Positions 14,047-16,031 of a stretch of DNA of 24,715 nucleotides are shown in pieces. The position numbers were made by a program, and so were the translations under genes. Source of the DNA: a virus. Within the stretch, counting starts at the first letter, position 1. The number at the start of each line of letters is the position of its first letter. The notes under the pieces were generated by a model, which saw only the letters and a program-made list of their open reading frames with translations, was not told the DNA's origin and ran no database searches. The stretch is taken from positions 1-24,715 of the IMG/VR virus record IMGVR_UViG_3300017764_000099; one strand, 5' to 3'.

Positions 14047-14078
14047 GAAAAGGGGGAGTCGTAAGACTCCCCTTTTTT
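14047..14078. terminator. Bidirectional terminator between convergent genes
   Basis: The stem GGGGAGTC/GACTCCCC (14053-14060, 14065-14072) with loop GTAA is flanked by AAAA on the left and six T residues on the right. It can therefore stop the plus-strand fibre transcript and the leftward transcript of the protease gene ending at 14098. Confidence 0.9.
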
Positions 14079-14097
14079 ATTATTATGTAAATTGAAA

Positions 14098-14820
14098 TTA
14101 TTTTTTCCAACGTATATTAAGGCTATCGGCTGCAAACTTACAACCAACTAAACCACCAAATAACATTAATATCATTATGCTATATGCAGCATTTTCACTT
14201 GCCATTAAACTATAATTCCATAACCCGTGATATAAAATACCACAACTAACTCCCATAACCGAGTAAATAAAAGTTTTAAATCGAGGATATCTATTAGTAA
14301 ACATATTGAAGATAGAACGACTGAATTTAGCAGATCTAATTTGACCTAACGCAAACCAATATCCAGCTAACAAACCAAATATCATATGAGATAAAGTAGA
14401 AGTTACTTGTCTTATGATTAATGTTTCATGTCCATATTTCTGCAGATAACTTATATTTTCAATCATAGCAAAACCCAGACCAACCATACCACAATAGAAC
14501 ATATTTCCTATAGGATGATTGTCTTCATCTTTTTTACTAATAAACCAAATACCTAAAAATGCTAAAAATTTAGCAATTTCTTCTCTAGGCGCAACTTCTA
14601 AAAACCAATAATCAATCCCTGGTTTTATAAATAAAAATTGAGGTTCATAAGGAAACCCAACTGTAATTATTCTATGAAAGCTAATTGAAATAACACCCCC
14701 AATTAGATATCGAACAGCTGTTTTGAGATTAATTGATTTAAATGGTGATGTCCAGTATATGATTAAAACATACAGTACTGGAGGTAACACCACTAATAAT
14801 AATAATTCTAAAGGATCCAT
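14098..14820 (-). CDS. PrsW-like intramembrane protease
   Basis: This 240-residue multi-pass membrane protein has about seven or eight hydrophobic segments. Its four motifs match the PrsW family of glutamic intramembrane proteases (related to CPBP/Abi proteins): EE-x-x-K at Glu80-Glu81-Lys84 (PREEIAKFLAF), F-x-x-x-E at Phe118-Glu122 region (GLGFAMIENISY, Glu121), His145 in LSHMIFG, and H-x-x-x-N at His198-Asn202 (LYHGLWN). In bacteria PrsW cleaves the membrane anti-sigma factor RsiW, and relatives process other membrane proteins. The gene is the second of a minus-strand pair, six bases after the methyltransferase stop, and ends at the shared terminator. In a phage it could cleave a host membrane protein or defend the infected cell from superinfection, but no target is visible. 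There is no cleavable signal peptide; the first helix begins at residue 5. Confidence 0.82.
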   Translation of the reverse strand: MDPLELLLLVVLPPVLYVLIIYWTSPFKSINLKTAVRYLIGGVISISFHRIITVGFPYEPQFLFIKPGIDYWFLEVAPREEIAKFLAFLGIWFISKKDEDNHPIGNMFYCGMVGLGFAMIENISYLQKYGHETLIIRQVTSTLSHMIFGLLAGYWFALGQIRSAKFSRSIFNMFTNRYPRFKTFIYSVMGVSCGILYHGLWNYSLMASENAAYSIMILMLFGGLVGCKFAADSLNIRWKK

Positions 14821-14826
14821 AATTTT

Positions 14827-16020
14827 TTATTTTATTAAGTAAAATATATTTATTTTGTTGTAACTAGTTTTAAATTTTTTATCTTTCAATTCATTCACTC
14901 TATCATCTCTCCTTAAAGGTTTCCGTCTACATATAAATAAACAACCCTCGGGTAATATATCAATAATCATTTTTGATAATTCTGCGTCATACATTGTATT
15001 ATCACAATAAACTACTGTAGCATCGCTAACATCACAATTAAGAAAAGACTCGTGAATATAACTAATGTTATCCATATCTTTACAATATGTTTCTTTAATA
15101 TAGTTAGCACCTTTCATTCTTTCTTTCGATAATTCAATACCACAAGATTTTTTAGGACTATATTGTAAACCTATATGAGCTACCATTTTTCCTAACCCAC
15201 ACCCTAAATCATAAAATACTGTATTTTCATCAAAATAGTCTTTAAATTCATCTACTATTCCATTTGTAGATATTTGAGTTACTTCCCCATAAATTGAATA
15301 TTCTTCTCTATCAAATTTTGTTTTATTTCCATATTGTCCAAAAGAATTTATTTTATAGATTTTTTCTAAGATTTTATTTAAGTTTTCCATTGTTTTTCCT
15401 GTTTTTTTATTTAAATCAGGAAATTTTTTATTTACGTAAGTATTCATTATTTTTTCTTGCATCTCTTCATTTCCCTCTGCTTTATACCACAACCATAACC
15501 ATGAAGTCTCTTTTCCTTTAACTTCATCCTGTTTTTCCTTAATTAGTTGTTTTATAAATTCTATTTCATCCTCCCCCAAATCAACATCTATATTAATTTG
15601 TTGGGCAACAAATGCGAGCTGAACTATGTTATTTTCTTCATATGCTTCTTTAGCCAAAACATAGAAATGAACTAAATCCTCAGAATTAACTTTATCAGGA
15701 TGTGTTTTTTTCATTATCTCACGAAACATTGTTTTTAACCGTTTTTTAGTCTCATCAGATAATAAATCATCCTCTATCTTTTTTTTGATAGGTTTTTTCT
15801 CTTTCGGTTTAGATTCTTTTCTATCCTTATCTTTAATATCCTCTTTAGATTTTTTTTCCTCCTCTTTTTCACTAACTTTACTAGTTTTTTCTAGAAAAGA
15901 TTCCATGAATTGAGGTTGATATTCATCTATAATTTCATCTTTCAATTCTTCATCTGTTAAAAGATAACTATATTCTAACAATAACTTCTTTATTTCTAAT
16001 TGTTTAAGTTTATCTCCCAT
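14827..16020 (-). CDS. J-domain protein fused to DOT1-like methyltransferase
   Basis: This 397-residue protein has three parts. Residues 1-45 are helical and 46-85 form a highly charged Lys/Glu linker. Residues about 90-165 look like a J-domain: KRLKTMFREIMKKTHPDKVN holds the HPD tripeptide (107-109) that in DnaJ proteins stimulates Hsp70/DnaK, and a following helix resembles the J-domain third helix (VLAKEAYEENN). Residues about 240-397 form a class I SAM-dependent methyltransferase: YGE (244-246), motif I VFYDLGCGLGK (268-278), the acidic residue after strand 2 in CGIELSKERMKGA (Glu296), and VVYCDNTMYDAEL (336-348). The YGE, DLG-G-GK, GIE and 'NN-F'-like series recalls DOT1-type lysine methyltransferases. 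The substrate is unknown. It is the first gene of the minus-strand cassette. Confidence 0.7.
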   Translation of the reverse strand: MGDKLKQLEIKKLLLEYSYLLTDEELKDEIIDEYQPQFMESFLEKTSKVSEKEEEKKSKEDIKDKDRKESKPKEKKPIKKKIEDDLLSDETKKRLKTMFREIMKKTHPDKVNSEDLVHFYVLAKEAYEENNIVQLAFVAQQINIDVDLGEDEIEFIKQLIKEKQDEVKGKETSWLWLWYKAEGNEEMQEKIMNTYVNKKFPDLNKKTGKTMENLNKILEKIYKINSFGQYGNKTKFDREEYSIYGEVTQISTNGIVDEFKDYFDENTVFYDLGCGLGKMVAHIGLQYSPKKSCGIELSKERMKGANYIKETYCKDMDNISYIHESFLNCDVSDATVVYCDNTMYDAELSKMIIDILPEGCLFICRRKPLRRDDRVNELKDKKFKTSYNKINIFYLIK

Positions 16021-16023
16021 AGT

Positions 16024-16031
16024 TATAAATA
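16024..16031 (-). promoter_or_regulatory. Minus-strand TATTTATA box before the J-domain gene
   Basis: Read leftward, the octamer is TATTTATA and lies only three bases before the ATG at 16020. That is too close for a normal -10 box unless transcription starts inside the gene. Read rightward it is TATAAATA, the T4 late-promoter sequence, but no gene follows closely in that direction. The function is therefore uncertain. Confidence 0.25.

Follow-up and report, generated by a model that had tools for sequence, protein, structure and literature searches.

The window analysed here is the whole of a 24,715-nt (24.7-kb) IMG/VR virus fragment. A 240-aa ATG open reading frame fills positions 14098-14820 and is read on the minus strand, from 14820 to 14098; the plus strand over this interval is rich in stop codons and closed. 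The only other substantial minus-strand gene in the window is its 397-aa neighbor at 14827-16020, and GC skew flips at this pair (-0.22 and -0.37 over 14-16 kb, positive elsewhere). T4-like head genes (portal, S77 prohead protease, and Gp23 capsid) are encoded on the plus strand, and the ORF at the left edge sits in the terminase position, judged by synteny with phage immuto. An earlier note on this DNA had placed the 240-aa gene inside the structural late region, which holds for its position but passes over its opposite strand; its setting as a two-gene unit with the J-domain/DOT1 gene was absent from that account. A strong stem-loop with a T-run (14052-14079, plus strand) lies just past a 929-aa plus-strand gene, between that gene and the converging 240-aa gene. 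The features of the minus-strand pair are:

14098-14820, minus strand: PrsW-family intramembrane protease gene, 240 aa (PF13367 match and AlphaFold2 model)
14215-14229, minus strand: motif 4, H198-G-L-W-N202, in predicted transmembrane helix (TM) 6
14386-14388, minus strand: H145, in predicted TM5
14455-14472, minus strand: motif 2, F117xxxE121-N122, in predicted TM4
14569-14583, minus strand: motif 1, E80-E81-x-x-K84, in predicted TM3
14827-16020, minus strand: J-domain/DOT1 fusion gene (J-DOT1), 397 aa, upstream of the protease gene across a 6-nt gap
16023-16031, minus strand: TATTTATAA, candidate late-type promoter element, separated by 2 nt from the J-DOT1 start codon

The carrier is a T4-like environmental phage, probably of a Bacteroidota host. 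A host in this phylum is likely because the nearest named phage by Gp23 (59%), immuto, infects Flavobacterium, and because a TonB-dependent receptor with plug and barrel (L002:16820-18871), an unusual gene for a phage, is present in LR756502, one of the huge-phage carriers of the protease gene. In immuto itself, tblastn found neither PrsW nor the J gene, and the equivalent place holds no similar annotation.

Family membership was assessed with the profile searches that the earlier note had proposed. The PF13367 PrsW-protease profile (Pfam-A) matched residues 72-220 at an E-value of 5.4e-22, its 78.7 bits exceeding the gathering cut-off of 23.5. The CPBP/CAAX profile PF02517 gave no match at E 1, and the window motif is EExxK, not EExxxR. 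Against the NCBIfam RsiW-protease equivalog NF033739 the protein scored 50.6 bits, below the cut-off of 225. By these profile scores, the window protein is a member of the PrsW family and not an ortholog or equivalog of Bacillus subtilis PrsW. PHROGs contained no family matching it, the PDB held no sequence relative, and PADLOC returned no match for PrsW, for J-DOT1, or for the Acb1-like protein described below.

All four PrsW-type motifs (E80, E81 and K84; F117, E121 and N122; H145; H198-GLWN) were found at the residue numbers previously assigned to them. The residues of motifs 1 and 2, together with H145 and H198, showed no variation across the 23 phage and 80 cellular sequences; some rows had been fetched with patterns covering parts of E80/E81 and the F117-E121-N122 region, such that invariance is free of search-pattern ascertainment for K84, R137, H145, and H198 only. 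Position 202 is either Asn or Asp, the window protein carrying HxxxN and most relatives HxxxD. Estimates of dN/dS (NG86) between phage copies ranged from ~0.23 to 0.6 (closest pair, 0.22/0.93), with dS near saturation for most pairs and dN well below dS for every pair. Third codon positions changed fastest. The phage gene is therefore under purifying selection.

An AlphaFold2 model built from 42 aligned proteins of the window and the loci (pLDDT 91.6, pTM 0.90) consists of seven long helices, with predicted transmembrane segments at residues 3-24, 32-55, 69-95, 103-129, 131-160, 179-207, and 209-239. Seven helices fit the seven to eight expected of PrsW proteins, most of which have eight (PMC3482391). 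Together with a PF13367 match far beyond chance and 22 further distinct phage homologs, they bear out the description of a PrsW-like multi-pass protein. Topology placing the conserved residues outside the membrane helices or on opposite faces would have spoken against it; in the model, every motif residue falls within predicted TM helices 3-6, at estimated depths that agree. The published PrsW model puts EExxK, His, and HxxxD in helices matching those of the window protein (PMC4602095).

Lys and Arg residues were distributed unevenly across the membrane, with 12 on one side and 2 on the other, and the imbalance had the same sign in 42 of 42 relatives. The positive-inside rule assigns loops rich in Lys and Arg to the cytoplasmic side, and the N-terminus is therefore predicted to lie outside and the C-terminus inside. 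As estimated from the helix ends, E80, E81, E121, H145, and H198 are ~1 to 8 Å outward of the helix midpoints, and the motif acids and histidines fall within ~7 Å of one depth along the helix axes. From the model and the charge distribution, we infer that the active site lies within the outer bilayer half, on the periplasmic side.

Structural comparison gave APH-1 as the top match (5a63_C; Z 14.5, rmsd 5.3, 202 aligned), followed by a multipass-translocon subunit (7tm3_6; Z 13.8) that we take to be the APH-1-like TMEM147, where by the aligner's own warning chance Z for helical models can reach 14. Lower scores went to SpdC (Z 7.3) and to Rce1, a CAAX protease (4cad; Z 5.5), and identity to APH-1, Rce1, and SpdC was ~9-13%. 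Unrelated CcmABCD and LptFG-type rows reached Z 8-9, so helical matches at that level are unspecific. The top rows (APH-1 and the translocon subunit) do belong to the expected superfamily, which unites PrsW, APH-1, and CAAX proteases, the last of these without the TM5 histidine (PMC4602095). Foldseek searches against viral structures (BFVD) and the PDB produced no E-value under 0.1.

The distribution of the gene differed between named and environmental phages. The 50,697 INPHARED records were searched by tblastn with the window protein, the phage protein of carrier G006, and two bacterial homologs as queries; a convincing PrsW emerged in 2 only, LR756502 and LR745206, both of them huge phages (635-642 kb) that lack annotation. 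A further hit, MT837334 (a 10-kb 'phage', 32% over half of the query), was excluded as likely bacterial, being an actinobacterial-looking PrsW on a high-GC contig. Plasmids yielded two weak partial matches only. Scans of IMG/VR with the single window protein or the single J-DOT1 protein returned nothing, whereas alignment queries recovered many more copies, including on contigs of 194 to 363 kb; the G006 copy was recovered by family search. Altogether, 23 distinct phage copies (under 90% identity) were identified, among them those of the window and of the two huge phages. Rarity, as the earlier note had it, is thus true of named phages, while the gene recurs at distinct loci of large environmental phages.

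All 23 copies formed one clade against 80 cellular PrsWs (SH-aLRT 97; support 100/99 for the phage clade with six rows). The simplest reading of this tree is a single acquisition of PrsW by large phages, either in an ancestor or through a gene pool that they share. The clade is a previously unremarked branch of the family in large phages, and the literature searched contained no paper on a phage-encoded intramembrane protease. Aquatic RNA viruses have been described with a PrsW-like domain (PMC7508674), whereas the dsDNA tailed phages here carry PrsW as a stand-alone gene. The near-invariant Asp of DGIVY in cellular PrsWs (alignment A6) is Gly, Ala, or Ser in the phage copies (A9). Compared with B. 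subtilis PrsW, the RsiW site-1 protease, the window protein is alike in family, in the four motifs, in superfamily fold, and in the predicted extracytoplasmic side of the active site; it differs in falling short of the equivalog score, in belonging to a separate phage clade, and in that no anti-sigma partner was found in the phages.

The neighboring J-DOT1 protein comprises an N-terminal J-domain module, with HPD at residues 107-109, and a DOT1-type methyltransferase at ~206-397. The methyltransferase was assigned by PF08123 (E 1e-12; 48.5 bits against a cut-off of 23) and by a fold match to bacterial DOT1L (9ne1; Z 17.1, rmsd 3.4, 183 aligned). As a single sequence, the J module matched the DnaJ Pfam family at E 0.0025, its 18.3 bits lying below the cut-off of 27.8, and there was no confident PHROG match. 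As a profile, it matched Ydj1 (E 0.0018) and other J domains, and the HPD lies between two helices and is invariant in 15 relatives. On these sequence comparisons, the J part is a divergent member of the J-domain co-chaperone family. DNAJ-domain proteins of jumbo phages have been predicted to recruit host HSP70 (PMC7824862). Phage-encoded Hsp70 as a J partner was found, among the records tested, only in the two huge phages.

A J or J/DOT1 gene adjoins PrsW in the window and at loci L005 and L006. The J/PrsW grouping recurs in two phages besides the window, with DOT1 joining in one: G002/G003 have the three-gene order J, PrsW, DOT1, and G001 has PrsW then J. The J family is also common in related phages where PrsW is not adjacent, usually standing alone and in reverse orientation to tail and neck genes; J is joined to DOT1 at L102/L103 and followed by it at L113/L114. 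As J is common with no PrsW beside it, PrsW seems to have been added to an accessory site centred on J.

Several observations accompany this family. Its phage members share a conserved N-terminal helix, KLKxLEIKKLLxEY, and are widespread in large T4-like phages; members, sometimes fused to or followed by DOT1, were found at 14827-16020 of the window (minus strand) and at L005, L006, L102-L121, L123, L130, and L131. A full-length Hsp70/DnaK (E 1e-251 or better) is encoded by each of the two phages of 635-642 kb (L140 and L141, from LR756502 and LR745206). The gene before PrsW in LR745206 (L003:10510-11910) encodes C-terminal CxxCxGxG repeats resembling the DnaJ cysteine-rich domain, with a weak Pfam match.

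The minus-strand pair is preceded by a sequence motif that recurs in this phage group. The most enriched 8-mers upstream of genes across 17 related loci were TATTTATA and words overlapping it. Of the 45-nt regions upstream of 198 genes, 46 carried TATTTATA in the sense orientation, compared with 12 antisense and 4.4 in shuffles preserving single-base composition only. In the window, TATTTATAA is present on the plus strand at 2908, 16218, 19102, and 23349, preceding genes at 2926, 16237, 19124, and 23370; its minus-strand copy occupies 16031-16023. We take TATTTATAA to resemble the T4 late element; because of this resemblance, and because the motif precedes structural genes, we infer that it is a candidate late-type promoter of this group. 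At other loci it sits 0-2 nt before J genes, a spacing that suggests leaderless messages. PrsW is preceded by its own copy of the motif in L005 and L006, and by none in G006.

Outside the window branch, the gene contexts of PrsW differ between subclades. In 8 of the 23 loci (L158, L159, L162, L163, L165, L169, L174, and L179), PrsW is preceded on its own strand, at a distance of one to four genes, by a gene for an Acb1-like phosphodiesterase; in three of them the gaps are 9, 10, and 38 nt. Each of the three Acb1-like proteins scanned (L158, L163, and L179) exceeded the Pfam Acb1 cut-off of 27 bits (28.6, 29.3, and 31.7), one matched solved Acb1 at E 1.4e-4, and the two HxT motifs (HVT and HxT) were invariant in all eight. 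Acb1 defeats CBASS (PMC9117128); it is unrelated to PrsW and could be a counter-defence partner only. All eight loci fall within one subclade of 14 that excludes the window, therefore approximating one old association kept rather than repeated gain. DHFR and a 4HBT thioesterase also recur in this subclade. Acb1 was not found in the records of the window, G001, G002, G005, or G006, several of which are fragments. Two of the contigs carrying both Acb1 and PrsW exceed 350 kb, and in five loci a PHROG 2072-type protein gene precedes the Acb1-like gene.

Individual carriers have neighbors of other kinds. In LR745206 the next gene after PrsW, 30 bp away, is for a PG-binding/GH19 protein, in LR756502 it is for a GH16 protein, and in G006 a secreted 324-aa protein is encoded just before it. 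The 232-kb carrier G002 encodes two adjacent sigma-70 factors of the primary type (287-288 aa; L143:5224-7048).

Taken as a whole, our preferred explanation is an active PrsW-type protease acting on a host membrane protein, with immunity effectors the favored targets, to which we give a probability of about 0.4. Its parts differ in strength. On its motifs and predicted fold, the window gene very probably encodes an active protease, and the substrate of such a protease is probably a host membrane protein. Membrane-anchored immunity effectors as the target class are a distinctly tentative proposal, favored because the sister subclade keeps PrsW beside an Acb1-like anti-CBASS phosphodiesterase.

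Mechanistically, PrsW would insert in the host inner membrane with its N-terminus out and C-terminus in, and would cut membrane-anchored host proteins near the periplasmic face, as B. subtilis PrsW does RsiW. In the window lineage it would be made together with the J-domain/DOT1 protein from the late-type promoter, and the J protein may direct host DnaK to the cytoplasmic remnant, whether released or unfolded. The substrates might be abortive or nucleotide-signalling immunity effectors such as those of CBASS. Extended to the whole lineage, this would describe a phage protease that destroys membrane-anchored host immunity effectors with an Acb1 partner in one branch and J-DOT1/Hsp70 in that of the window, a generalization we regard as unlikely. 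Equally doubtful is the division of labor it implies, in which Acb1 removes the cyclic-nucleotide signal and J-DOT1 recruits host Hsp70 to the targets. Counter-defence is accordingly our first choice of role at low confidence, its support being indirect, through the Acb1 linkage of a sister subclade. A counter-defence gene would less naturally be expressed late, and since J is common in these phages with no PrsW beside it, the adjacency of the two may only reflect a shared accessory site.

A rival role is superinfection exclusion or receptor clearing, whereby a late protease removes an inner-membrane protein needed by incoming DNA or related phages. The position in the late region, the late-type motif, the membrane location, and the sporadic accessory placement beside J are all consistent with such a role. 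We nevertheless consider it improbable, as no linkage to known exclusion genes was found and PrsW is accompanied in the largest subclade by genes for DHFR, a thioesterase, and the Acb1-like protein, not by late genes.

Somewhat less likely still is that PrsW switches on or rewires envelope-stress sigma signalling of the host through a site-1-like cut in a host anti-sigma factor, as PrsW acts on RsiW. The family was founded on this function (PMC4602095, PMC9263693), the active site is predicted on the appropriate extracytoplasmic side, and carriers G006, W01, and W02 encode ECF-type sigma factors. However, these ECF genes do not adjoin PrsW, the zf-HC2 and FecR anti-sigma families were not found in carrier records, the window protein is not a PrsW equivalog, and the promoter motif is of late type. 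The anti-sigma idea of the earlier note consequently retains the ECF factors of several carriers in its favor and gained no specific support.

We assign a similarly small chance to PrsW processing a membrane or secreted protein of the phage itself, for example in lysis or envelope passage. Envelope or lysis roles would suit the GH19/PG-binding and GH16 neighbors of the two huge phages, and might suit the secreted protein gene of G006, but none of these neighbors is shared by as many as three of the 23 loci, and the recurrent neighbors lack a membrane anchor wherever they were seen. APH-1 is part of gamma-secretase but not its catalytic component. A catalytically dead, APH-1-like membrane scaffold or immunity protein is suggested by closest solved folds (APH-1 and the translocon subunit) that are not themselves proteases, yet is very unlikely given motif residues invariant across a deep clade, which a scaffold need not conserve.

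Our results reveal PrsW as a gene family missed by current phage annotation, both in PHROGs and in INPHARED records. Its phage clade, with conserved motifs and in part linked to anti-CBASS genes, provides candidates for a new counter-defence or envelope-control activity, and what phages cut inside host membranes becomes a testable question.
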